From Alphaproteobacteria bacterium (GTDB taxonomy: Bacteria; Pseudomonadota; Alphaproteobacteria; UBA2966; CAIVPW01): a DNA stretch of 37,621 nucleotides. Of the stretch, positions 5,844 through 37,621 are shown one piece after another; position 1 is the stretch's first letter, and each line of letters opens with the position of its first letter. A program made the translations under genes and the position numbers. Below the pieces are notes generated by a model, which had not been told where the DNA came from, did not search any database, and worked only from the letters and a program-made list of their open reading frames with translations. The stretch spans positions 1 to 37,621 of the forward strand of contig CANKGV010000023.1 in assembly GCA_947481575.1 (NCBI GenBank). The letters run 5' to 3'.

Positions 5844-6344
5844 TTACGGAGCGGCGGAACCGGGGACCGGCGCGGGAGCGGTTGGTGCAGCGGGCACCAG
5901 AGCCGGTGTAGCGGCGGGCGCCGCCGGAATCACGCCGAGCGTGGGCGGCGCGGCGATCGCGGGCGCACCGGCATCGACGCGAGGCCCAAGGTAGAGGCCG
6001 AGCACAAATCCCGGGCCGCCGTCTTTCGCGACGACCTGATACCAAAGCGATGCCGTGATGATCCGGCCGGTGACAGTGACCGGTTCGCCGCGCGCGAAGC
6101 GGCCGACGATTTCGCCGGCCGTGGACGGTGTGGCGCGCACGTTCACGGTGTCGGTGGTGCGGACGTAGAGTACGGCGTTCATGGCCACGAGTTCCGGTTC
6201 GGGCAACGGGACAGCCACCGGCGGCACGACCGAAGCGGGCGCGGCGGGCGCCGGACCCGGCACTACGCTGGGGGCTTCCTGGGCATCCGCACCGACGGCG
6301 CACGCCAGCAGCACCAATCCGGCGCCGAACGAAATTCGCAGCAT
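5844..6344 (-). CDS. Exported SH3-domain protein with Pro/Ala-rich ends
   Basis: The 166-residue protein starts with a signal peptide (MLRISFGAGLVLLACAVGADA, cleavage about residue 21). It then has a Pro/Ala/Val-rich linker, a bacterial SH3 domain (about residues 55-115: VNVRATPSTAGEIVGRFARG, then LWYQVVAKDGGPGFVLGLYLG) and a second Pro/Ala-rich tail. SH3 domains of this kind bind peptidoglycan or peptides in the periplasm; the role here is unknown. ATG 6344 is chosen because CGGGAG lies six to seven bases before it. The TTG five codons upstream would place this ribosome-binding site inside the gene. It converges on the truncated GFA gene. Confidence 0.78.
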   Translation of the reverse strand: MLRISFGAGLVLLACAVGADAQEAPSVVPGPAPAAPASVVPPVAVPLPEPELVAMNAVLYVRTTDTVNVRATPSTAGEIVGRFARGEPVTVTGRIITASLWYQVVAKDGGPGFVLGLYLGPRVDAGAPAIAAPPTLGVIPAAPAATPALVPAAPTAPAPVPGSAAP

Positions 6345-6687
6345 CGACAACTCCCGCAACGGCTTGACCGGGGGTCGGACCGACCGGCGGAACGCCCGCG
6401 CCGGCCATCAGCCCGGCCACACCCAGTTGAACACCGCGTGAACCGCCGTGAACACCTCCGGATGGTGCGCGGCACCCCCTATTCTGCCATGCGCAGCGCG
6501 CCGGGCCAGATACGCTACACCCGCTGGTCACACAAAGGTGCCTCGGCGCCTTAATGACTTAGCGGCCCCCCGTGGCTGCTCGCGCAAAGCTGAATTGCGT
6601 GAGCCAGACAAAGCCCGGACACTTGCGGCCAACCGCAGCGCAGGGCGTGGGGGCCGTGCGCGCCGTTTTACCCAGGGGAGACTACCC
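6345..6687. other. Intergenic region between divergent genes
   Basis: About 340 bases separate the SH3-protein gene and the thioredoxin gene. The frame that opens at 6448 and joins the thioredoxin frame has no signal or domain, and I take it as non-coding. Apart from the AGGGGAG ribosome-binding site at 6674-6680 I see no defined promoter or repeat. Confidence 0.4.
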
Positions 6688-7074
6688 ATGCTTCGCCGGT
6701 CCTTCTTCGTGGCTTTGTTTGCGCTGCTGCTGACGCCGTTTGCGGCGTTCGCGCTGGCGCCGGTGCCGTTCGACCAAGCGGCCTTTGCCGCCGCCCAGGG
6801 CGCGGGCAAGAGCATCCTGGTGCAGGTGCACGCCGACTGGTGCCCGCAATGCGCTGCGCAGCGGCCGATCATCACCAACCTGATGAAGGAAGAGAAGTTC
6901 AAGAACATGGTGATCTTCAACATCGACTTCGACACCCAGAAGGATCTGGTGAAGAAGTTCAATGTGATGCGCCAGAGCACGCTGATCGTGTTCAAGGGGG
7001 CGGCCGAAGTGGACCGCACCGTCGGCGCGACGCAAGCCGCACCGATCACCGAATCGCTCGCCAAGGGACTGTAG
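6688..7074 (+). CDS. Periplasmic thioredoxin-fold protein
   Basis: This 128-residue protein has a signal peptide (MLRRSFFVALFALLLTPF, cleavage about residue 23) and a thioredoxin fold with the redox motif WCPQC (Cys52, Cys55). ATG 6688 has AGGGGAG seven bases upstream; the longer frame adds a sequence without a signal. The next gene, 19 bases away, encodes a CcdA-type electron transporter. A likely scheme is that CcdA carries electrons across the membrane and this protein passes them to periplasmic or cytochrome c maturation targets. The conserved cis-proline position reads RQSTLIVF, so it lacks the usual TPT and may tolerate a different partner. Confidence 0.85.
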   Translation: MLRRSFFVALFALLLTPFAAFALAPVPFDQAAFAAAQGAGKSILVQVHADWCPQCAAQRPIITNLMKEEKFKNMVIFNIDFDTQKDLVKKFNVMRQSTLIVFKGAAEVDRTVGATQAAPITESLAKGL

Positions 7075-7093
7075 GCCGCCCGACTTCCGGCGG

Positions 7094-7816
7094 ATGTCGA
7101 CCAGTGTCTACGCCCTCGGGTTTCTCGCGGGGGTGCTGACGACCCTGTCGCCGTGCGTGCTGCCGCTGCTGCCGATCGTGATCGCCAGCGCGGCAGCGGC
7201 ACACCGCATGGGTCCGGTTGCCCTGGGCGGCGGATTGATCATCACGTTTGTCGGTGTCGGGCTGTTCGTGGCCACGGTCGGCTACGGCATCGGCCTCGAT
7301 GCCCAAGTGTTCCAGTACATCGCCGGCGGCATCATGGTGGTGCTCGGCCTCGTGTTGCTGTCGAGCCCGCTGCAGCAGCGGTTTGCGCTGGCGGGCGCCG
7401 GCATCGGCTCGGTGGCCGAGAGTTGGATGCAGAAGGTCACGCCGGAAGGCTGGCAGGGTCAGTTGGTGATCGGCCTACTGCTCGGCGTGGTGTGGGTGCC
7501 GTGCATCGGCCCGACCCTCGGCGCGGCGTCGCTCATGGCGTCGCGGGGCCAGAACCTGGGCCAGGTGGCGTTGGTGATGACGTTGTTCGGCATCGGCGCC
7601 GCCGCTCCGCTCATGGTGATCGGCAGCCTGTCGCGCGAAGCCTTGAAGCGCTGGCGCGGCAAGATCAACGCCACGGGCCAAACCGGCAAGATCGTGTTCG
7701 GCGCGATCATCCTGCTGGTCGGCTTCGCCATCCTCACCGGCTTGGACAAGGTGGCGCAGATTTGGCTGATCCAAGTCTCGCCAGCATGGCTGACGGACCT
7801 GACGACCCGGTACTGA
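7094..7816 (+). CDS. CcdA/DsbD-type thiol-disulfide electron transporter
   Basis: The 240-residue protein has about six transmembrane helices and the two membrane cysteines of the family: Cys21 in SPCVLPLLPI and Cys137 in VPCIGPTLG. CcdA and the DsbD core move reducing equivalents from cytosolic thioredoxin to periplasmic acceptors. It lies directly behind an exported WCxxC thioredoxin-like gene, so the pair probably works as one relay. There is no DsbD-like soluble domain fused at either end, consistent with CcdA. The ATG follows a GGCGG stretch that can serve as ribosome-binding site. Confidence 0.88.
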   Translation: MSTSVYALGFLAGVLTTLSPCVLPLLPIVIASAAAAHRMGPVALGGGLIITFVGVGLFVATVGYGIGLDAQVFQYIAGGIMVVLGLVLLSSPLQQRFALAGAGIGSVAESWMQKVTPEGWQGQLVIGLLLGVVWVPCIGPTLGAASLMASRGQNLGQVALVMTLFGIGAAAPLMVIGSLSREALKRWRGKINATGQTGKIVFGAIILLVGFAILTGLDKVAQIWLIQVSPAWLTDLTTRY

Positions 7817-7904
7817 TTCCGGGACAGCGTTACGTCAGTGGGACTACTTCGAGTGATCCGGTTACTGCCTCGACTCCCCGGCGCTCCTCACGGCAAGCGG
7901 GCGT

Positions 7905-8495
7905 TTATGTGGGGGAGAAGGCCCGCAACGTAATTGGCCCCAGGTGTTCGTAGACTTCAGTGACCATCCGGCTACCAGACAGCATCGCTGGATCAAGAAG
8001 TTCCGAGAACGCCTCGGTCATAAGGACGTATTCTTTCGCCGACACAGAGTTCTTCAGGAGCCGGTGAACGATAATCACGTCCTCACCAGTAAGCTCTTCG
8101 AACTGCCGAATCCGTCTGAACGCTACGTCGCCAGCGTGGACGACCGCTTTGAGGCGCAGATTGGTAATGTTCTGACACGCGTCGCACGGGCATGTGGTTC
8201 CGCCCGCTAGCTCCGCAACCTTTGCGCGGAACCCCGGAACCAGCGCAAGAACTTGTTGAGCGATCTGTAGGGCCGCGCGCTTCTCGTCGCTTTGAGTTTC
8301 CGCGTACATGAAGGCGGCATCGCCCTCAAACTTGTTGAGGACCAGCGGAAAATCGGCACCCTCGACGATATGCTCAAGAAGCTGAGCGATCGCCTCGGAA
8401 GCGTGCGCCAGCGTTCCTTGGTTCAGCCGAATGAATTCTGTGTAGCCGCTGATGTCGAATAGCACCAGGGCCACCTTCTTGATCTCCAGGGCCAA
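7905..8495 (-). CDS. DUF2652 / nucleotidyl-cyclase-like protein
   Basis: The 196-residue protein starts with VLFDISGYTEFI, the class III cyclase-like strand of the DUF2652 family. FEGDAAFMYAE follows where the second metal site lies in true cyclases, and then a CPCDACQN cysteine cluster and LRLKAVVHAGDV. DUF2652 proteins share the cyclase fold but have no proven activity. The start is either TTG 8495 or GTG 8474; the GTG has GGAG nine bases before it and gives the usual short N-terminus, so it may be the true start. GC content looks about ten points lower than in neighbouring genes, which hints at recent acquisition. It converges on ccdA. Confidence 0.72.
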   Translation of the reverse strand: MALEIKKVALVLFDISGYTEFIRLNQGTLAHASEAIAQLLEHIVEGADFPLVLNKFEGDAAFMYAETQSDEKRAALQIAQQVLALVPGFRAKVAELAGGTTCPCDACQNITNLRLKAVVHAGDVAFRRIRQFEELTGEDVIIVHRLLKNSVSAKEYVLMTEAFSELLDPAMLSGSRMVTEVYEHLGPITLRAFSPT

Positions 8496-8628
8496 TCTAG
8501 GTCACCACGGGGCGGCCCCATTGTGTTCCGCCCGCCGCGCTGCACGCCGTATCAGGCGGCGTTCCCGATCCCCGAGAACTGGCCCAACGTGGGCCCGCGC
8601 ATGCCGCTGACACAACAACTGCCCCCCC

Positions 8629-9727
8629 TTACGTCAGTACTTCCTTCGCCTTGGCCACCAGCGCCGCGGGCAGCGTGACGCCCAAGTTCTTCGCGTTGCG
8701 CTGGCTAACCACCAGTTCCGGTGCGGGCTGCGCAACGGCGATGGCACCGGCCTTTTCGCCCTTCAGGACGCGAGCGGTGGTGTTGCCGGCGGTCTTGAAC
8801 ATCTCGTTGTAGTTGGGGCCAAAACTCATCAGGCCGCCGCCGATGACGTAGTCGCGCCACGGCGCAATGCCGGGGAGCTTGAGCGCCAGAGAATAGGCGC
8901 CGAACGTTTGGGCCCATTCGGTGAGATCGATGCCTTCGGCGATCGCCAAGCCATTGGCGCCCCCCCTTTTGGGCATCCATCAACGCACGCAGATAGGCCG
9001 ACAGGTCGAGGCCCGCGTCGTCTTTCACGTCATCGAAGAAGGCCGGCGTGGCACCCGCGCCCGTGGCCGCCGCCACCATGCCCGTGCCCCACGGAGTGGG
9101 TGATTCGGCCTGACTCTTGATCAGATAGGCGACTTTGGCAGCCGCCGGCACCGCTTCTTTCAGTAGCGCAATTCTCGCCGCTTCGCGTGTGGCGCCCGCG
9201 CCGGCGGTGACGCCGGTGATGTTGGCCCCCGGCGCAGCGAGGTTCTGCACCAGGCCAGCCGCCTGCATATCGCCGACGATAGCAACCACCGGAATGGTGT
9301 CGGTTGCAGTAGAAGCGCCGCGGGCGATGTAGCTGCTCGTGGTGACGATCAGGTCGGGCTTGGTCCCGGCGATGGTCGTGCCGAGGGCGTTCCAGGTGTT
9401 GCCCTGAAGGCGCCGCACCATGTTGACGCGCGAACCGGAGAATCGCTCATAGGTCACGTTGGTGCCGGTGACGAAGCCTTGGGCCTTCATTTCATTGAAA
9501 AACGCAAGCCAGCCGGCATCGCCGCCGTTGCCTTCCAGCATCGCCTCGGTCGCAACCGTTCCGCTGGCGATGGCGACGCGACGCATCGGTCCGGGTGCCA
9601 GCGGCACGGCAGGGGCAGCCGCCGGGGCGGCCGCGGGCGGCGCGGCCTGCTGGGCCTGGACACGAATGGTGGGCACGGCGACGGCGGCTGCGGCGAGGCC
9701 GGCGAGTATGGAACGGCGCGAAATCAT
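8629..9727 (-). pseudogene. ABC transporter substrate-binding protein, frameshifted
   Basis: The intact product would have about 365 residues: a twin-arginine signal (MISRRSILAGLAAAAVA), an Ala/Pro-rich linker and an ABC_sub_bind-type domain (RRVAIASGT, TKPDLIVTTSS, TIPVVAIVGDMQAAGLVQNLAAPGANITG). After about residue 253, at MDAQKGG, the frame breaks. The rest (ANGLAIAEGIDLTEWAQTF to LVAKAKEVLT) continues in another frame and ends at 8629. The break coincides with a run of seven C on the plus strand (8960-8966); six would restore the frame. The start ATG 9727 follows GGGAGG. The family binds small ligands, often aromatic amino acids, but no permease or ATPase gene lies beside it. Confidence 0.8.
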
Positions 9728-10013
9728 GGGGTCCCCCTCCCGAGGAAAGTGTGCCGCGAGGGTAGGCTTTCCGCCCCGGAACACACAATTCACGCAGTCG
9801 TGCGGGTCGTAAGTGTTAACGGCCGACAAAAATGCACGAAGTCCCCTTGCCGTTGAGGGACATCCGGCCCATGTTGTGTGTATCGAGATTTGGCCGAACG
9901 AATTGGCCTCGCCGCTACCAACGGCCGACGGACGAACTCCTCCCCCAACCTCGAACTGAGCGGCTGTGCATGTGCGCAGCCTTTATCCACACGTATCTAG
10001 AGGAAGACATCCC
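9728..10013. other. Divergent intergenic region and cspA leader
   Basis: This 286-base gap carries the start region of the substrate-binding gene (minus strand) and the upstream region of cspA. I see no convincing sigma-70 pair. A TTAACG CtrA half-site lies at 9815-9820. Genes for cold-shock proteins usually have long structured leaders, and the gap is long enough for one. Confidence 0.35.
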
Positions 10014-10223
10014 ATGAGCACGGGAACGGTGAAGTGGTTCAACAGCCAAAAGGGCTTCGGTTTCATTCAGCCCGACGACGGCAGCAAAGACGTGTTCGTT
10101 CACATCAGCGCGGTTGAACGCGCAGGCATGAACGGCCTCAACGAAGGTCAGAAGGTTTCCTTCGACGTCGTTGCCGATCGTAAGAGCGGGAAGTCGGCCG
10201 CCGAGAACTTGAAGGCCGTCTAA
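10014..10223 (+). CDS. cspA: Cold-shock protein (CspA family)
   Basis: The 69-residue protein is a single cold-shock domain with both RNA-binding motifs: RNP1 KGFGFI (residues 13-18) and RNP2 VFVHI (residues 27-31). It binds single-stranded RNA and acts as an RNA chaperone. ATG 10014 is chosen because AGAGGAAG lies about ten bases upstream and the family begins [10 protein letters not shown]. Two strong hairpins follow. Whether this copy is cold-induced cannot be told from the sequence. Confidence 0.95.
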
Positions 10224-10242
10224 CCTACGCCTACATGGCCAC

Positions 10243-10276
10243 GCCGCCCTGACCACGGATGTACTGGCAGGGCGGC
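10243..10276 (+). terminator. Hairpin after cspA
   Basis: GCCGCCCTG (10243-10251) pairs perfectly with CAGGGCGGC (10268-10276) around a 16-base loop. There is no T-run. It precedes the stronger terminator at 10291 and may protect the mRNA 3' end or support termination. Confidence 0.45.
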
Positions 10277-10290
10277 TGGTGGCCGAAAGA

Positions 10291-10330
10291 GCCCCGCGTC
10301 TGGTCCGCCAGCCGCGGGGTTTGCTTTTTT
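10291..10330 (+). terminator. Rho-independent terminator of cspA
   Basis: GCCCCGCG (10291-10298) pairs with CGCGGGGT (10313-10320). Inside it CTGG pairs with CCAG around TCCG, across one mismatch. TTGCTTTTTT follows at 10321-10330. Confidence 0.9.
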
Positions 10331-10400
10331 GCCTACGGGGAACACGCGCCGCACACGGATCGATCACCGACACCGCCACATCGTGGCCAGGAGACCTGCA

Positions 10401-10649
10401 ATGGCAGCCGAGAAGGAAACCCGCGAACAGCGCGCCAGAATCGCCGCCAAAGATGCCCGCGACAAAGACGCGGCAAAGGCGGTGCGGGATTACGAGGCCA
10501 ATCTCCAGGCCAACCTAGCCAAGACCGCCCGCTTGCGCGCCTTGCGCTTGGCCGCGGAAGCTGCGGCGGCAACCGCCGCTGCCGAAGCCGCCGCTGCGCC
10601 GGTCAAACGCAAACGCACACCCAAAGAGAAGCCCGCCGCAGCCGAGTAG
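10401..10649 (+). CDS. Small charged, alanine-rich helical protein
   Basis: This 82-residue protein (MAAEKETREQRARIAAKDAR at its start) is rich in Ala, Lys, Arg and Glu and ends in a basic tail (PVKRKRTPKEKPAAAE). It is probably one long helix and has no family I recognise. The composition resembles small nucleic-acid-associated proteins, but that is only an impression. ATG 10401 has AGGAG eight bases upstream, which favours a real gene over chance. It lies between the cspA terminator and a convergent FMN-binding protein gene with a three-base gap. Confidence 0.6.
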   Translation: MAAEKETREQRARIAAKDARDKDAAKAVRDYEANLQANLAKTARLRALRLAAEAAAATAAAEAAAAPVKRKRTPKEKPAAAE

Positions 10650-10652
10650 CGC

Positions 10653-11051
10653 CTAGGCCTTGGCGCGCTTCAGCGCTGCGGCCAGGGACGACGCAAACGC
10701 ACGGCTGGTTGGCGTAGCGCCGGAGATGACGTGAACGCCGGCGCTTTGCGTGTCCAGCGCTTCGCGCATCAGCACCGGCAACGCGCGCTGGTTGATGGTC
10801 TGCGAGCGACTGCGGTCGTGCGGGTATTCGACGATCTGGACATCGGCGAGGCGGCCGCCTTTGATGATCGCCTTGACCTGTAGGGGGCCGTAGTACGCAT
10901 CGGTCCGGTCGCCGGCATACTCGCCGTCGCGGTAGCCCGTTGCCACCGCCGTCCCGGGCGGCACCTGGGCGAACCCCTGGCCCGCAGCCGCACCCACCAG
11001 CAGGCCGGTGGCCGCGGGGGCAAGCAACAACGATAGCAGTAGCCTGTTCAT
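10653..11051 (-). CDS. Exported FMN-binding domain protein
   Basis: The 132-residue protein has a signal peptide (MNRLLLSLLLAPAATGLLVG, cleavage about residue 29, FAQV). Its FMN_bind domain includes DGEYAGDRTDAYYGPLQVKA and the flavinylation-type motif SGAT at residues 110-113, so Thr113 would receive covalent FMN through a phosphoester bond. Such small proteins pass electrons in the periplasm or at the outer membrane face. ApbE, the flavin transferase they need, is not in this window. The start ATG 11051 is set by the signal peptide; the frame extends 67 codons upstream without features. Confidence 0.85.
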   Translation of the reverse strand: MNRLLLSLLLAPAATGLLVGAAAGQGFAQVPPGTAVATGYRDGEYAGDRTDAYYGPLQVKAIIKGGRLADVQIVEYPHDRSRSQTINQRALPVLMREALDTQSAGVHVISGATPTSRAFASSLAAALKRAKA

Positions 11052-11370
11052 CGTCCAGAGCCTTGGGCTGGTGTGCACCCCCGCACCTGACGCCGAGTAT
11101 ATGCATCCGCCCGGCCAACGCTCGCGCGGGTTGGTATCAGAATATTTCAGAAGTGCCGGGCGGCGCGGAGGCGGATTGAGGCGGACTGTGAACACCGGCG
11201 CGTTGGGCGCGCCGATGCGTGCGAATCGTAGCAATTCGTTAGGGGTTTTCATGCTCTATTGGGGTCGTCCTGTTCCATCCGCAGACCCCCTTTGGGGCCG
11301 GCAGGGCGGCCGCCGCAGCCAATCATGCGACGGGGCGCGGGGAAACCCGCGCTCACCGGAGTAGGTCTCC
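11052..11370. other. Intergenic region upstream of fliG
   Basis: No gene is seen in this 319-base gap. It contains a GC-rich inverted repeat (GGCGCG TTGG GCGCGCC near 11199) and GGGGTC/GACCCC arms around 11265-11290. I found no sigma-54 (-24/-12) or sigma-28 promoter of the kind that often drives flagellar genes. Confidence 0.35.
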
Positions 11371-12417
11371 GTGGCGAAATTGATCGACGCTGACGATCGC
11401 GGTGAGGCTGACGGTGGGCTGAGTGACATCACCGGCCCGCAGAAGGCATCTATCGTGATGTTCGCCATGGGCGAGGAGCGCACGGCGCGCCTGTTCGGCA
11501 TGATGGACGACACGGAAATCACCGAGCTTTCCCAGACGATGGCCAATCTGGGCCAGGTCGATGCGAAGACCGTGGAAAGCTTGTTCGTGATGTTCGCCAA
11601 GATGATGTCGGGCTCGGGCTCGCTGGTAGGCAGCTTCGAGAGCACCGAACGCCTGCTGACCAAGAGCATCGGCGCCGAACGCGTGGCGCAAATCATGGAA
11701 GACATCCGCGGCCCCGCCGGCCGCACCATGTGGGACAAGCTGGGCAGCGTGAACGAAGCGACCTTGGCCACGTACCTGAAGAACGAGTATCCGCAGACAG
11801 TTGCCGTGGTGCTGTCCAAGCTCAAGGTGGAACACACCGCGCGAGTGCTGGGCGAACTGCCGGAAGAGTTCGCCATGGAAGTGGTCACGCGCATGCTGGC
11901 GATGGAGTCCGTGCGCAAAGACATACTGGACGGCGTCGAGCAGACACTGCGCACCGAGTTCATGAGCAACCTGGCGCGCACGGCGCGACGCGACAGCCAT
12001 GAGATGATTGCCGAGATCTTCAACAACTTCGACCGCTCGACCGAGAGCCGGTTCATGACCGCGCTGGAAGAGCGCAGCCGCGATTCCGCCGACCGCATCA
12101 AGGCGCTGATGTTTACCTTCGACGACCTGGGCAAGCTCGACCCGGGCTCGGTGCAGACCCTGCTGCGCGGCGTGGAAAAGACCCGCCTCGCGGTGGCGCT
12201 CAAGGGCGCTTCGGAGACGATCCGCGACCTGTTCTTCAGCAACATGTCGGAACGCGCCGGCAAGATGCTGCGCGAAGACATGGAAGCGATGGGCCCGGTG
12301 CGCCTGAAGGAAGTCGACGAAGCGCAGATGGAGATCGTGACCAAAGCCAAGGAACTGGCGGCTTCGGGCGAGATCGTCATCAGCGAAGGCGGCGGCGACG
12401 ACGAGATGATCTACTAG
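11371..12417 (+). CDS. fliG: Flagellar motor switch protein FliG
   Basis: The 348-residue protein aligns along the whole FliG family: N-terminal domain ([21 protein letters not shown]), a middle domain with EYPQ (residues 139-142) in place of the usual EHPQ, and the C-terminal motor domain ([17 protein letters not shown] and [28 protein letters not shown]). FliG sits in the C-ring, transmits torque from MotA and sets rotation sense. The start is GTG 11371 with GGAG nine bases upstream. No other flagellar structural gene lies nearby, which is unusual because fliG normally sits in a fliF-fliG-fliH cluster. Confidence 0.93.
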
Positions 12418-32184: not shown

Positions 32185-32502
32185 ATGAACGAGCACGAGT
32201 TCGAGACCCTGGCCGAGCGAACCCTGGACGCCATTGCCACCACCGTGGAAGACGCGGCCCCGGATGCCGAGGTGGACCTGCAAGGCGGCGTACTCAGCAT
32301 CCAGATCGAGGGTGCGGGGGTGTTCCTGGTGAACAAACACGCTCCCCTGAAGCAATTGTGGGTTTCTTCCCCCTACTCCGGCGCAGGGCACTTCGCCTTT
32401 GACGGCAAGGTCTGGGTGAACACCCGCGGCGGCGCCAACATGGCGGAATCGCTGGGGGCGGAGTTGAGCCGGGCCACCGGCGTCACCATCTCCATCGGCT
32501 GA
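32185..32502 (+). CDS. cyaY: Iron-binding frataxin homologue CyaY
   Basis: The 105-residue protein has the frataxin fold: an acidic N-terminal helix ([19 protein letters not shown]), [31 protein letters not shown] and a C-terminal helix. The acidic first helix and strand bind iron, and CyaY tunes iron-sulfur cluster assembly on IscS. The stop TGA shares one base with the ATG of the ABC exporter, so the two are co-translated. Confidence 0.92.
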
Positions 32503-34391
32503 TGGCCCGCACCGCCGAACAACAGTTGCACGACGACCGCCGCACCGCCGCCGGCGGCCGCGGTGGCCGTGGGGGCCGCGGCGGCGGCGACGCGCTGCCC
32601 GAGCGCCCGCCGCAGCGCGACATCCGGCACCTAGCCAAAACGTGGGAATTCGCCGCGCAGTACCGCTGGCACGTGATCGGTGCGGGCATCGCGCTGGTCG
32701 TCGCGGCAGGATCCACACTGGTCGTTGGCCAAGCGTTGCGCGCGATGGTCGATCGCGGCTTTGGCGGCCAAGACCAGGCCGGGATCAATATCTATTTCAT
32801 CGCCGTGTTCGGCGTGGTGATGGTACTGGCGGGCAGCACGTTCGCGCGCCACTACCTAGTGAGTTGGCTGGGCGAGCGTGTAGTGGCGGACATCCGCAAG
32901 CGCGTGTACTCCCACGTGATCGGTCTTTCGCCCGAGTTCTTCGAGGTGACCCGGACCGGCGAGGTGCTGTCCCGCCTGACCACCGACACGACGCTGATTC
33001 AGTCGGTGGTGGGCTCCAGCGCCTCCATCGCGCTGCGCAACGTGCTGCTGTTCCTGGGCGGCCTGGTGATGCTGGCCGTGACCAGCCCGAAACTGGCCGG
33101 ACTCGTGGTACTCGCCTTGCCGCTGGTGGTGGTGCCGATCTTTGTCTTCGGGCGGCGCGTGCGCAAGCTGTCGCGGTCCACCCAGGACCGCGTAGCGGAC
33201 GTGGGCGCCCATGCCGGCGAAAGCCTGAACGCGATTCAGACGGTGCAGGCATTCAACCACGAAGCGCTCGACGTGCGTGGATTCGCCGGAGCGGTTGAGA
33301 CATCGTTCCAGACGGCGGTGACGCTGATCCGCGCGCGCAGCTGGATGACCGTGTTCGTGATGTTGCTGGTGTTCGGCGCGGTCGATCTTGTGCTGTGGAT
33401 CGGCGCGCGCGACGTGCTGGCCGGTACCATGAGCGGCGGCGAACTGGCCGCGTTCATTTTCTACGCGGTGCTGGTGGCTAGCGCGATGGGTGCGCTGGCC
33501 GAGGTGGTGGGCGATCTGCAGCGCGCTGCGGGTGCGACCGAGCGGCTGATGGAGTTGCTTTCCACCCAACCGATCATCGCCGCACCGGAGAATCCCAAGA
33601 CCCTGCCTGTGCCGGCCAACGGCGCGGTGCAGTTCGATAGCGTGACGTTCCACTATCCATCCCGGCCGGAAAGCCCCGCGCTCATCGATTTCACGTTAGA
33701 GGTGAAGCCCGGGGAGACCATTGCCCTGGTGGGTCCATCGGGGGCGGGAAAATCGACGGTGTTCCAACTGCTTCTGCGGTTCTATGACCCGCAGAAGGGC
33801 CGGATCGCACTGGAAGGCGTGCCACTGACGGAGGTGGACCCAGAAGCCGCCCGCCACGCCATCGGCTTGGTGCCACAGGATGCGGTGGTGTTCGGGATTT
33901 CCGCGGCGGAGAACATCCGCTACGGCCGCCCGGACGCCACTGACGCCGAAGTACGCGCGGCGGCAGCGGCGGCCAATGCGATTGAATTCATCGACGCGCT
34001 CCCCGACGGGCTTGCGACCAACTTGGGCGAACGCGGCACGCGCCTTTCGGGCGGGCAACGCCAGCGCATCGCCATCGCCCGCGCCGTGTTGCGCGACGCG
34101 CCGATTCTGCTGCTCGACGAAGCTACTTCGGCGCTGGATGCCGAATCCGAGCGCGCCGTGCAAAAGGCGCTGGAGCCGCTGATGACGGGGCGCACGACGA
34201 TCGTCATCGCCCACCGGCTCGCCACCGTGCTGCGCGCCGACCGCATCGTAGTGATGGACCGCGGCAAGATCGTGAGCATCGGCACCCATGCCGAGCTGAT
34301 CCGCGAAGGCGGCCTGTACGCACGCCTTGCGGCGCTGCAGTTCAATGCGGCGTTTGAAGAAGTGCCGGTGCGGCCGCGCGCCGCGAGCTAA
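32502..34391 (+). CDS. MsbA-like ABC exporter (fused permease-ATPase)
   Basis: The 629-residue protein has a Gly/Arg-rich N-terminus (18-30, [12 protein letters not shown]), six transmembrane helices (about 50-330) and an ABC domain with Walker [10 protein letters not shown] (about 411-419), signature [14 protein letters not shown] (about 515) and Walker [13 protein letters not shown] (about 535). It would work as a homodimer. Family relatives export lipids, peptides or heavy-metal/glutathione conjugates; I cannot fix the substrate. The coupling to cyaY (TGATG) hints at an iron or iron-sulfur link, but this is only context. Confidence 0.9.
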
Positions 34392-34437: not shown

Positions 34438-35877
34438 CTAGCGCTCGGTCAGCTTGAGTTCGATGCGCCGGTTGCGGCGGAAGGCGATTTCGTCTTCGCC
34501 GGTATCGATCGGCTGGAACTCGGCAAACCCAGTGGCGGCAAGCCGGTCGCTGGGCACGCCTTGCGACACTAGGAACTTCACCACGCTGAGTGCACGCGCC
34601 GTCGATAGCTCCCAGTTCGACGGGAACCGCACGGTGTTGATCGGACGCTTGTCGGTGTGGCCGTTGACCTGCAGGACCCAGTTCACTTCGCGAGGGATGC
34701 CGCGCGAGATTTGCAGCAGGGTTTGGGCAAACTTCGCCAGTTGCGCTTTGCCTTCATCGCCCAACTCGTCTTGGCCCACCGCGAACAACACCTCCGACTG
34801 GAACACGAAGCGATCGCCGACCACGCGCACATCGGCGCGGTCGCCCAGCACTTCGCGCAGGCGGCCGAAGAATTCGGACCGGTACAGCGAGAGTTCTTCG
34901 ACCTTTTGCGCCAGCGCCACATTCAGGCGCTGGCCGAGGTCGGCGATCTGGACTACCTGGTCCTTGTCCTTGGCTTCGGCGGCGTCCAAGGCGGCGGCGA
35001 TCTGTGCAAGCTGCGCACGCAATGCCGCTAGCTGTTGGTTCAAGAGGGCGACCTGCGCTTGGGCTTCGCCGGTTAGCTTGATCTGCTGGTCGGCCTCATT
35101 GGTCTTTTGCGACAGACCCTTTTTCGCGGCTTCCAGTTCGTCGGTGGTGCGGTTGTAGAGGTCCTGCAGCTCGGTGAGCTTTACGTCGCGGTCTTTCACA
35201 TCCTTTTGCGCCAGCGCCGTGCGTTCGGCTTCGGTGGCGAGGCGCGTTTCCAGTTCCTTGCTGCGGTCGCGCAGCGGGTTCAATTGCGCCAGCGCCGCTT
35301 GCAATGCAGCGTCGCGTTGTGCCGCGAGTTGCTGCGCTTGGGTTACCTGGACGGCAGCGCGGTCGGTTTGAACGCCGGCGTTATCGATGGCGAGCTTCAG
35401 GCCCGCCACTTGATCTTCGAGATCGGCGCGCACCTGCTTCAGCGCGGCGATATCGCGGTTCAGGCGTTCGATATCCGCCAGACGCGCCGTGATGACGTCT
35501 TTGTTTTCGGTGACGGTCCTTTGCGCATCGATCAGCGCTTGTTCGGCGGCGGTCGCGCGCAATTGCGCATCGCGCAGGCGCAAGTTGAGTTGGTCGCGGT
35601 CTTGGTTGACGGTTTGCAGGGTGGCGGTGAGCTGCGCCACGGAGGCGCGGGTGTCTGCGCCGGCCTTGCGTTCCATGTTGAGGAGGTCGCCCAACTCGGC
35701 GATGCGGGCGTTCAAGCGCTGGAGCGCCTGGTCGCGGCCCGATACCTGCTGGGCCAGGAAGAAATGGCCCAACATGTAGGCCACCAGCATGAAGATCATG
35801 ACCAGGATCAGGCTCGACAACGCGTCGACGAACCCCGGCCAAATGTCCAACTGCCTTTGAACGCGCACCCGCGCCAT
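34438..35877 (-). CDS. MotB-like protein with long coiled coil and OmpA domain
   Basis: The 479-residue protein begins with a MotB-like helix (RQLDIWPGFVDALSSL, then LILVMIFMLVAYMLGHFF) that has the key proton-path aspartate Asp18. It continues with about 290 residues of coiled coil (about 45-335, rich in Gln, Leu, Ala, Asp) and ends in an OmpA/MotB peptidoglycan-binding domain (NGHTDKRPINTV, then NWELSTARALSVVKFL). The coil is far longer than in flagellar MotB. It lies three bases after the MotA-like gene, so the two probably form one ion-driven complex. Function is unknown. Confidence 0.85.
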   Translation of the reverse strand: MARVRVQRQLDIWPGFVDALSSLILVMIFMLVAYMLGHFFLAQQVSGRDQALQRLNARIAELGDLLNMERKAGADTRASVAQLTATLQTVNQDRDQLNLRLRDAQLRATAAEQALIDAQRTVTENKDVITARLADIERLNRDIAALKQVRADLEDQVAGLKLAIDNAGVQTDRAAVQVTQAQQLAAQRDAALQAALAQLNPLRDRSKELETRLATEAERTALAQKDVKDRDVKLTELQDLYNRTTDELEAAKKGLSQKTNEADQQIKLTGEAQAQVALLNQQLAALRAQLAQIAAALDAAEAKDKDQVVQIADLGQRLNVALAQKVEELSLYRSEFFGRLREVLGDRADVRVVGDRFVFQSEVLFAVGQDELGDEGKAQLAKFAQTLLQISRGIPREVNWVLQVNGHTDKRPINTVRFPSNWELSTARALSVVKFLVSQGVPSDRLAATGFAEFQPIDTGEDEIAFRRNRRIELKLTER

Positions 35878-35880
35878 GGC

Positions 35881-37104
35881 TTAGTCCCGGTCGCGCCGCG
35901 AAGCGGAGATGCCGGCCATGGTACGCGCGAGCAATTTGATCTCGCTGCGAACGTCTTCCATCATTTGCGTCCGGCCAGAGGCCGACTCTTCCAGCAGCCG
36001 CATCACGTAGACGTCGAGGTTGCGCAGGTGGGCGCGGCTCGCTTCGTCCAGCGACAGCGTGCGATCTTGGTCGATGGATTCGCTCATGCGCCGCAGCACC
36101 GGGCGCATTTCCATTTGCGACTCAGCGAGCTTGGCCATCAGGTCCTGCTGCACGCGCATCGAATCGGTGAGCGTGGCGAGGCGATCGGCGAGCGCCATCA
36201 TGGCCGCGTTGCCGGTCGAGCGGTTTTCTTCGCCGCGGCTGATGGTGCGCTGGAGGCTATCGAGACTTTCGGCGGTTTGTTCCAGCAGCGCGGAAACGTA
36301 GGCCGGGATCGACTGATCGCCGCCACCCATGCTGCCGATGCCGGTGGCGAGCCGGGTGATGCTGGACAGCCATTCTTCCAGGTCGTTGTAGAAGCGATTC
36401 TGCGCCTGGCCGGTTTGCAGGTCGAGGAAGCCCAGCACCAGCGCGCCGGACAGACCGAACAGCGACGCCGAGAACGACGTGCCCATGCCCGATAGCGGCC
36501 CTTTCAGGCCCGCGACGAGGTCGGTGAACATCGCGGTGGTGTCGCCGGTATCGGTGATCGCCGACAACGCGCCCTGGACCGAACTGATCGTGCGCAGCAG
36601 GCCCCAGAACGTGCCGAGCAGTCCGAGGAAGATCAGCAGGCCGGTGAGGTAGCGCGAGATTTCGCGCGATTCGTCCAAACGCGACGAGATGCTGTCCAAC
36701 AGCGAGGTCATCGACAGGGTGGACAGCGCGCGCCCGCGGGTTTCGTCGCCGAGCAGCGTGGCCATAGGCGCCAGGAGCACCGGCGGCGTGCGCGGGGTGA
36801 GGCTAAGTTCGCCGCGGCGGTACGACTCGATCCATTTCACTTCCGGCTGCAGACGTTGCACTTGGCGGATCGTGTAGACCACGCCGAACAGCGCCAGCCC
36901 GAGAATGAGGGAGTTCAGCGCTGGGCTAGCCGCAAACGCGTCTGCCATTGGGCCCGAGACGTAGAGCAGCGCCACGAGCACCGCGACGACGAGCACGAAC
37001 AGAATCTGCCGCAGCAGATAGCGCCGCGGGCTGGTCATGGTGGGATTCGGAGCGGAAGCGCCGCGTTCCCGCGGGGCGCGCCGGTTGGTCGGAGTTGTGG
37101 TCAC
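35881..37104 (-). CDS. MotA/TolQ/ExbB-like proton channel protein
   Basis: The 407-residue protein has four membrane helices (about 31-51, 60-80, 150-170, 200-225) with the family sequences GLLIFLGLLGTFWGLL and GMGTSFSASLFGLSGALVLG. A cytoplasmic C-terminal part (about 230-407) is mostly helical, with predicted coiled coil (LADRLATLTDSMRVQQDLM). GTG 37104 overlaps the stop of the upstream OmpA-like gene as GTGA; an in-frame ATG lies at 37038. It should form the channel of an energy-transducing complex with the MotB-like protein. fliG is present in the window, but no flagellar stator context is seen. Confidence 0.85.
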   Translation of the reverse strand: MTTTPTNRRAPRERGASAPNPTMTSPRRYLLRQILFVLVVAVLVALLYVSGPMADAFAASPALNSLILGLALFGVVYTIRQVQRLQPEVKWIESYRRGELSLTPRTPPVLLAPMATLLGDETRGRALSTLSMTSLLDSISSRLDESREISRYLTGLLIFLGLLGTFWGLLRTISSVQGALSAITDTGDTTAMFTDLVAGLKGPLSGMGTSFSASLFGLSGALVLGFLDLQTGQAQNRFYNDLEEWLSSITRLATGIGSMGGGDQSIPAYVSALLEQTAESLDSLQRTISRGEENRSTGNAAMMALADRLATLTDSMRVQQDLMAKLAESQMEMRPVLRRMSESIDQDRTLSLDEASRAHLRNLDVYVMRLLEESASGRTQMMEDVRSEIKLLARTMAGISASRRDRD

Positions 37105-37621
37105 TGGGGCAGCAACACCACGTCGACGCGCTCTGCGGGACCGGTATCTTCGGCAACACCGAGCGCGCGCACATCAATCCGCGTGCTGCGCACTCCGGCG
37201 TCAATCAGGAACGAACGCACGGCCAGCGCGCGCGACAGCGACAAGCGGCGCGCGACACTGACCGTTTCGGCGGTGCCGCCCGCATAGGCGTTGAGCTGCA
37301 CGCGCCGCTCGGACGACGCGATGGCGGTGGCGATCCGCTTGAGCGCGTCTTGTGACGCAGCGGTGAGGTCCGCGTCGCCGCCGCTGAATTCGACCCGGCC
37401 GAGTTGGCCGCCGGTCACCGGAAGGGTGATGGGAGTGAGGGCAGCGACCTGCGGCGCAGGCGCGGCGTTGGGCCGAGCGGCGGCGGGTGCGGGCGCGGCG
37501 GCGGGCGGCACAGCGGGACGGGCGGCGACTTGCGGCTGGGCGGCGGGAGCTTGCGCCGCGGCGGCCGGTGCGGCGGTGGCCGGCGTGGTGGGCCGAACTG
37601 CTGCCGGCGCGGCTGCGGGCG
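37101..37621 (-). CDS. OmpA-like domain protein, 5' end outside window
   Basis: The visible 173 codons are the C-terminal part of a longer gene, whose frame is open to the window edge. A Pro/Ala/Gln-rich linker (first 60-70 residues seen) leads to an OmpA-like domain: LGRVEFSGGDADLTAASQDAL, then LNAYAGGTAETVSVARRLSLS (consecutive parts) and IDVRALGVAED. The peptidoglycan-binding Asp of classical OmpA domains is not clear here. It is the first visible gene of a tightly coupled operon with the MotA- and MotB-like genes. Confidence 0.8.
   Translation of the reverse strand, partial: PAAAPAAVRPTTPATAAPAAAAQAPAAQPQVAARPAVPPAAAPAPAAARPNAAPAPQVAALTPITLPVTGGQLGRVEFSGGDADLTAASQDALKRIATAIASSERRVQLNAYAGGTAETVSVARRLSLSRALAVRSFLIDAGVRSTRIDVRALGVAEDTGPAERVDVVLLPQ

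Follow-up and report, generated by a model that had tools for sequence, protein, structure and literature searches.

What does a bacterium do with a MotA/MotB-like gene pair whose MotB-like protein holds its wall domain at the end of a coil of about 300 residues? The question is raised by the right end of contig CANKGV010000023.1 (hereafter C23) of the alphaproteobacterial assembly GCA_947481575.1, a genome of 2.45 Mb in 47 contigs; our window is all of this contig as searched, 37,621 nt. At its right end the minus strand carries, from right to left, the C-terminal part of a gene for an OmpA-like periplasmic protein, cut by the contig end (37101..37619), the gene for a 407-residue channel protein of MotA/TolQ/ExbB type with four predicted membrane helices, here called A (35881..37104), and the gene for a 479-residue MotB/TolR-like protein, here called B (34438..35877). 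The OmpA-like stop and the GTG start of A overlap in GTGA, and three bases (35878-35880) separate the A stop from the ATG of B, so the coordinates bear out the gene layout described in an earlier reading of the letters (the sequence-only reading). Near relatives such as L058, L063 and L064 share the four-base overlap by coordinates, which supports the GTG start. We propose, with a probability of about 60%, that A and B together make up an inner-membrane motor of MotA/TolQ/ExbB kind that is driven by protons, has a continuous, phase-keeping coil to the wall and plays a role in the envelope. The domain layout, the conserved residues, the separate gene context and the heptad quantisation of the coil, on which we build this proposal, are direct observations.

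B is a member of the NCBIfam family PRK09039 (NF006543) by its curated score: model PRK09039.1-2 gives 425.8 bits, the cut-off being 305. The family is called 'peptidoglycan-binding protein', a name that gives no function, motor partner or coil behaviour. The sole membrane helix of B carries Asp18 (codon at 35824..35826, minus strand), the predicted proton carrier already picked out in the sequence-only reading, and it is invariant in 29/29 aligned homologues. Beyond it, residues ~42-344 (303 residues; 34846..35754, minus strand) form the coil. An AlphaFold2 model of B (mean predicted local distance difference test score, pLDDT, 79.5) places two long helices at 16-195 and 201-344, and a hydrophobic period of 3.5 residues in residues 44-345 was matched by 0/1000 shuffles; the coil of about 290 residues claimed earlier is thus real, at ~300. 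It is also mostly well predicted, with pLDDT ~85-91 at residues 51-160 and weak values (44-57) only around 171-210. The MotB/OmpA-type peptidoglycan domain follows (residues ~350-477; 34447..34830, minus strand), mostly at pLDDT >90 and with a Pfam OmpA score of 52.8 bits (cut-off 27.2); the closest solved sequences are MotS and MotB. His407, Thr408, Asp409, Arg428, Arg470 and Arg471 of this domain (TDxxxR...RR) are invariant in 29/29 rows, and the equivalents of such residues are reported to be required for wall binding in ZorB and Pal (PMC11890865).

But is the coil a real structural element, or only a stretch of helical composition? Its length gives an answer. We measured it as the number of residues from the membrane Asp to the GDRF motif at the beginning of the wall domain, a distance that mostly lies between 158 and 606 residues, a more than threefold range. 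In a first set of 111 homologues it ran from 158 to 581 with a median of 294; the 336 residues of the C23 protein are equalled or exceeded in 22%, so the coil that had been called very long is long indeed, yet ordinary for its family. These distances fall on multiples of seven. Divisibility by 7 was first examined on the first two samples, with the duplicate record L085 excluded, where 82/111 homologues (36/57 unique lengths) left no remainder with relaxed anchors and 84/110 with strict anchors. It held in 13 of the 18 loci that gave a length among 20 held-out broader loci, fetched earlier for another purpose, and again in 42/58 (21/35 unique lengths) of a 60-locus sample fetched after the first look, from which L208 (no B) and L239 (anchor not found) were left out. 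Over all samples, between which species may overlap, 137/187 distances are exact multiples, 35 leave 3 or 4 and 15 another remainder; the odd lengths 103, 118 and 770 were kept, though they may be anchor errors. Three or four residues make half a heptad, the mildest discontinuity that a coiled coil tolerates.

Shared ancestry was addressed on a tree of A: among independent sister pairs of differing length, with pairs of equal length collapsed, the difference is a multiple of 7 in 47/77, against an expected 11. Among the controls, the helical tail of A is divisible by 7 in 23/109 cases and the OmpA-like proteins in 13/93, and total A length is slightly uneven modulo 7 (p 0.04) without favouring zero. 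Alignment gaps in B are confined to residues ~101-280, in the middle of the coil, and both coil ends are constant in length. The coil-coding part of the window contains no tandem DNA repeat, so the heptad steps cannot here be put down to recent repeat slippage, and a superhelical period of ~100 residues, as in SMC arms, is weak at best (R 0.12-0.13). Because the length changes in whole heptads, the coil of B is one real, continuous coiled coil across the family.

The partner of B is less easily recognised. A scores 18.1 bits against Pfam MotA_ExbB (PF01618), below the gathering score of 22.9, and a genome search with that model therefore overlooks it; a sequence search found no credible solved relative either. 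An AlphaFold2 model (mean pLDDT 81.9, from an alignment of 58 homologues) predicts helices at 27-49, 52-58, 61-96, 112-123, 129-183 and 189-255, followed by tail helices at 268-346 and 354-406. Compared with solved structures, the modelled core ranks TolQ/ExbB highest (Z 12.1 to ~11 over ~190-199 residues; ~12 over ~194 for the best), followed by ZorA (Z 11.0) and MotA (Z ~10, in a match that takes in the extra N-terminal helix). Z values of this size are weak proof by themselves for helical bundles, and Foldseek returned no match for the model at E 0.001; the top structural ranks are nonetheless filled by these known relatives. In the profile alignment, GLLGTFWGLL of A lands on GLFGTVWGIM of TolQ, the GxxGT motif of the third helix. 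This alignment is all that we use as evidence from the profile comparisons with the genome's own A-type proteins, which gave probabilities of 67% for TolQ, 64% for L004, 19% for MotA and 1% for a PomA-like protein. Thr165 is invariant in 34/34 rows and Ser214 in 58/58; in TolQ and ExbB, Thr and Ser of these helices, the third and fourth of the membrane, line the proton path. By modelled core fold and GxxGT motif, A is thus placed in the MotA/TolQ/ExbB superfamily, though without the Pfam cut-off score.

Past its last membrane helix A continues into a cytoplasmic tail of ~175 residues (residues ~230-407; 35884..36417, minus strand), and the model agrees with the helical tail of that length proposed from the sequence: it is nearly all helical bar a short gap, at pLDDT 39-79 beyond residue 260. 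In 17 of 187 homologues (L044, L047, L048, L049 and 13 others) A has little or no such tail, so it is dispensable in some lineages; all 17 have short coils of 158-217 residues. Co-evolution of A tail and B coil was considered and dropped: the overall Spearman correlation of 0.18 vanishes in sister contrasts (92 pairs, rho -0.12; 10/19 of the same sign).

Is this pair simply one of the known motors under another guise? The genome holds four other A-type proteins found by a MotA_ExbB family search, and reading their sequences and neighbours suggests that L001 is TolQ with TolR, L002 belongs to a PomA/PomB-like pair and L003 to a MotA/MotB pair. The fourth, L004 (267 residues; G000:C12:71104-71349), is a MotA/ExbB-like gene with two small membrane-anchored frames after it, of no nameable family and possibly another uncharacterised 5:2-type motor. 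With separate TolQR, PomAB-like, MotAB and L004 pairs present, A/B of C23 is a fifth, separate system in this genome.

A occurs, mostly as a single copy, in 44/61 relatives, in 123/190 genomes sampled across Alphaproteobacteria (E 1e-20) and in 76/299 across the phylum (E 1e-10). Outside the class, strong matches in the phylum sample come from five genomes (G262, G327, G361, G342 and G466), and the other 12 are weak, several of them in long, Zorya-sized frames. The PRK09039 cut-off was reached in 0/14 control genomes, Caulobacter included. A/B is an old, mainly alphaproteobacterial pair. At L162-L165, outside the class, strong A and B homologues stand adjacent, in unrelated gene settings and with no OmpA-like gene, which suggests that the pair may have moved horizontally. 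Presence of A is independent of flagella as judged by full-length FliG: of the 190 genomes, 69 have both, 54 only A, 38 only FliG and 29 neither (odds ratio 0.98, p 1.0).

The neighbourhood repeats this picture. Across 41 loci, those of the C23 window and of 40 relatives, several of them truncated at contig ends, the clusters that recur are A (41), B (38), the inositol-monophosphatase gene suhB (30), a divergent ABC exporter (28), efp (27) and thiE (22). The exporter, which lies outside the operon at 32502..34391 on the plus strand of the window, is nearly always on the strand opposite to A/B. In 80 named loci, the best 80 of 576 relatives (two of them the same record), we counted A in 80, B in 78, an OmpA-like gene in 62, suhB in 61 and efp in 57, and A and B are adjacent in most of the 20 broader loci (L178 ends before B; L173 is doubtful). 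The sequence-only reading had allowed that the genes might always lie in flagellar or tol-pal clusters. They do not: FliG is near A/B in 0/140 related loci, and TolQ in 1/41, 0/80 and 0/20. Within the window, a complete FliG gene (11371-12417, plus strand) lies 23 kb from the operon, and contig C10 carries a second; beside the copy in the window we recognised a cold-shock-like protein (by eye), a cyclic-nucleotide-binding protein and a Na+/H+ antiporter. We rejected the flagellar region that this gene might hint at, there being no flagellar gene recognised beside it and no FliG in the 140 related loci.

The OmpA-like gene is a looser companion. The earlier reading saw the three genes as one operon. 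The A-B part of this claim stands, but the OmpA-like gene is near the pair in only 31/41 loci by BLAST (21/41 by clustering), 62/80 and 2/20, some loci being cut by contig ends, and since it is missing from part of the loci, the operon core is the A-B pair and not the trio. What C23 retains of the protein is an Ala/Pro-rich linker and a degenerate OmpA domain (Pfam OmpA 44.4 bits, cut-off 27.2). Of 93 homologues examined, 60 have a recognisable L-x-x-RA motif, and the canonical Thr-Asp is present in 0/60; its absence suggests that the protein may not be a usual wall-peptide binder. Its N-terminal half lies at the left end of contig C1 (L184, 3-920, minus strand) as a frame of 306 residues that comprises a signal peptide and an Ala/Pro-rich linker; suhB and thiE come next. 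The break falls inside this linker, which makes it probable that C1 and C23 adjoin in the genome. About 6 kb past suhB, C1 carries ruvA, ruvB and the tol-pal operon from tolQ to pal (L184, ~6200-12300). We rejected a Tol link as local linkage, given the TolQ counts above and RuvB near A/B in 5/41 loci.

How, then, would such a machine work? A and B would probably assemble as A5B2, with protons passing between Asp18 of B and the polar residues Thr165 and Ser214 in the third and fourth membrane helices of A, and A would turn with respect to the dimer of B. Beyond the membrane, both chains of B would form one continuous parallel coiled coil up to the MotB-type peptidoglycan-binding domain. The coil could have nearly any length while keeping its helical phase, and the wall-binding heads would then stand at a fixed angle to the channel helices; a fixed phase might enable the anchor in the wall to hold the rotation of the motor, or to sense it. 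A likely role is envelope remodelling or tethering in the growth and division of Alphaproteobacteria, which is our best guess, and the OmpA-like protein may be an accessory in the lineages that possess it.

Several other explanations deserve to be set against this one. A spare flagellar stator would account for the MotB-type wall domain of B and the fourth, MotA-like N-terminal helix of A, and we consider it very improbable: 54 of the 123 genomes with A have no full-length FliG, MotAB and PomAB-like pairs are present separately in the C23 genome, FliG is absent beside A/B from the related loci, and the modelled loop of A has one short separate helix (112-123) against at least four in the flagellar torque interface, according to a recent survey (PMC12505986). 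The PADLOC models for ZorA and ZorB match at 4e-16 and 8e-22, and the helical tail on A and wall domain on B recall ZorAB; that A/B is a Zorya-like anti-phage device nevertheless strikes us as highly doubtful. The pair occurs in one copy, among conserved housekeeping genes (efp, suhB, thiE) throughout the class, no nuclease or helicase appeared among the conserved neighbours (PADLOC having been run on part of them), B fits its own NCBIfam family far better, and the model of A lacks the beta strands reported in the same survey as unique to Zorya A proteins (PMC12505986). Could the channel be vestigial, and B mainly a passive wall tether or spacer? The free coil length, which imposes no fixed distance, would suit this, but Asp18, Thr165 and Ser214 are invariant and the phase is kept, which a tether does not need, and we think this unlikely.

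The shape of the coil is a question of its own. Residues 42-344 would measure ~45 nm if straight, and the coils of relatives ~18 to >80 nm; the distance between inner and outer membrane in E. coli is reported as 30-32 nm under the conditions of that study (PMC8824477). One way out would be for the coil to fold back as an antiparallel hairpin, in the manner of SMC arms; this would return the wall domain to the membrane and keep its reach short and constant. The break in the modelled helix of B at 196-200, the Pro at residue 201, the fixed length of both coil ends with all variation in the middle and the overshoot of a straight coil all speak for it. Matched arms should add heptads in pairs, however, and agreement modulo 14 is absent: even and odd heptad numbers occur 44 and 38 times in the first set and 22 and 21 times among the unique lengths of all sets, and a 14-residue periodicity is nil (R 0.05). 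This argues against a hairpin with matched arms, which we hold to be rather unlikely; a parallel dimer is the simpler reading. If the parallel coil is kept, its length beyond the width of the periplasm (~45 nm here, >80 nm in relatives) points to an arm that reaches sideways or aslant. B might then serve a rotary proton motor as a long arm locked in phase, acting on or sensing the wall tens of nanometres away, with the angle from channel to head fixed. We put this forward tentatively, as a possibility well short of an even chance; if true, it would be a cell-wall motor of an undescribed kind.

Some points weigh against the proton-driven motor with a phase-keeping coil, and we would like to place them side by side. 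Continuity at the seams alone favours whole heptads, and the steps prove that continuity more firmly than a phase kept from end to end, which we infer. Proton flow, rotation, the 5:2 assembly, wall binding, the parallel dimer and the envelope role are likewise steps that we infer. A straight, perpendicular coil of 45 nm is too long for a periplasm measured by the yardstick of E. coli, which is not the host, so the coil has to be bent or run aslant. A break at 196-200, at a confidence <50, interrupts the AlphaFold2 helix of B, and a bend may perhaps lie by Pro201, in the part of the model with the lowest confidence. The phenotypic evidence is also indirect. In the flagella-less Komagataeibacter hansenii, overexpression of motA/motB reportedly gave longer cells, chains, wider colony spreading and looser cellulose, with polar green fluorescent protein fusions (PMC6570709, PMC6315621). 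The two proteins, of 348 and 321 residues, are an adjacent non-flagellar alphaproteobacterial pair, and the best matches of the MotB are reported to be alphaproteobacterial at 46-48% identity over 95-99%. Within our family, B of Asaia and Magnetospirillum share 45% at 99% coverage, whereas the alignment of the flagellar MotB of this genome covers only 35%. The agreement of the reported identities with the in-family values makes it probable that the K. hansenii pair belongs to the same family. That work deals with overexpression only, for cellulose, and the coil is not its subject (PMC6570709, PMC6315621). Overexpression phenotypes can be indirect as evidence of a role: in E. coli, overexpressing TolQ by itself reportedly blocks division (PMC3831626), and the Komagataeibacter phenotype may therefore be non-specific.

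Finally, we would like to place A/B among the systems it resembles. With TolQR and ExbBD it shares the best fold match of A and the same FVD motif in the membrane helix of B; it differs in the OmpA/MotB-type domain that closes B behind a long coil, in the additional membrane helix and the long tail of A, and in having no TolA, TolB or TonB operon, the genome's tol operon being separate, on C1. ZorAB also combines a helical cytoplasmic tail on A with a MotB-type wall domain on B, whereas A/B has a shorter tail, a periplasmic coil that is far longer, and conserved neighbours that are housekeeping genes, with no effector gene recognised among those screened. Flagellar MotAB has the same four predicted membrane helices in A and the OmpA/MotB-type wall domain in B, but A appears from its model to lack the expanded torque interface, and A/B has no link to flagella. 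The proposal of the sequence-only reading, a proton-driven machine distinct from flagellar, Tol and Exb systems, is thus supported, by the separate MotAB, PomAB-like and TolQR genes of this genome, the missing tie to FliG and the near absence of TolQ beside the pair. A dependence of coiled-coil length on helical phase has precedents in SMC arms, and modulo-7 analysis in sensor-kinase linkers (PMC5344682, PMC11164954), but these are not peptidoglycan-bound membrane motors, and SMC arms are antiparallel. According to a survey of 379 MotA homologues published in 2025, B subunits outside flagella lack an OmpA-type wall domain, which is taken there as a hallmark of flagellar stators (PMC12505986); the A/B family is a plain exception to this rule, with such a domain on a TolQ/ExbB-like motor.

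The family itself is already in databases, and a member has probably already been overexpressed in Komagataeibacter. In the literature on the neighbouring genes, PRK09039, Brucella and transposon sequencing, and Rhizobium and Agrobacterium, we found no published study of the A/B pair, and PMC11527210 and PMC9275681, searched for Mot, Exb and OmpA, contain nothing on it. Nor did we find a heptad-stepped MotB-type linker reported in papers on heptads, linker length and MotB, judged mostly by title and the start of the abstract. New here is the combination of architecture, gene context, independence from flagella and a heptad-quantised coil, which we did not find in print. For the Alphaproteobacteria this means that about two thirds of the sampled genomes (123/190) carry a mostly single-copy pair that is probably a non-flagellar motor. 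The heptad rule offers a handle on whether a 5:2 motor can work only with its B dimer at a fixed angle: evolution has changed the length of this shaft more than threefold, and the lengths that it allows and avoids predict which engineered ones should function.

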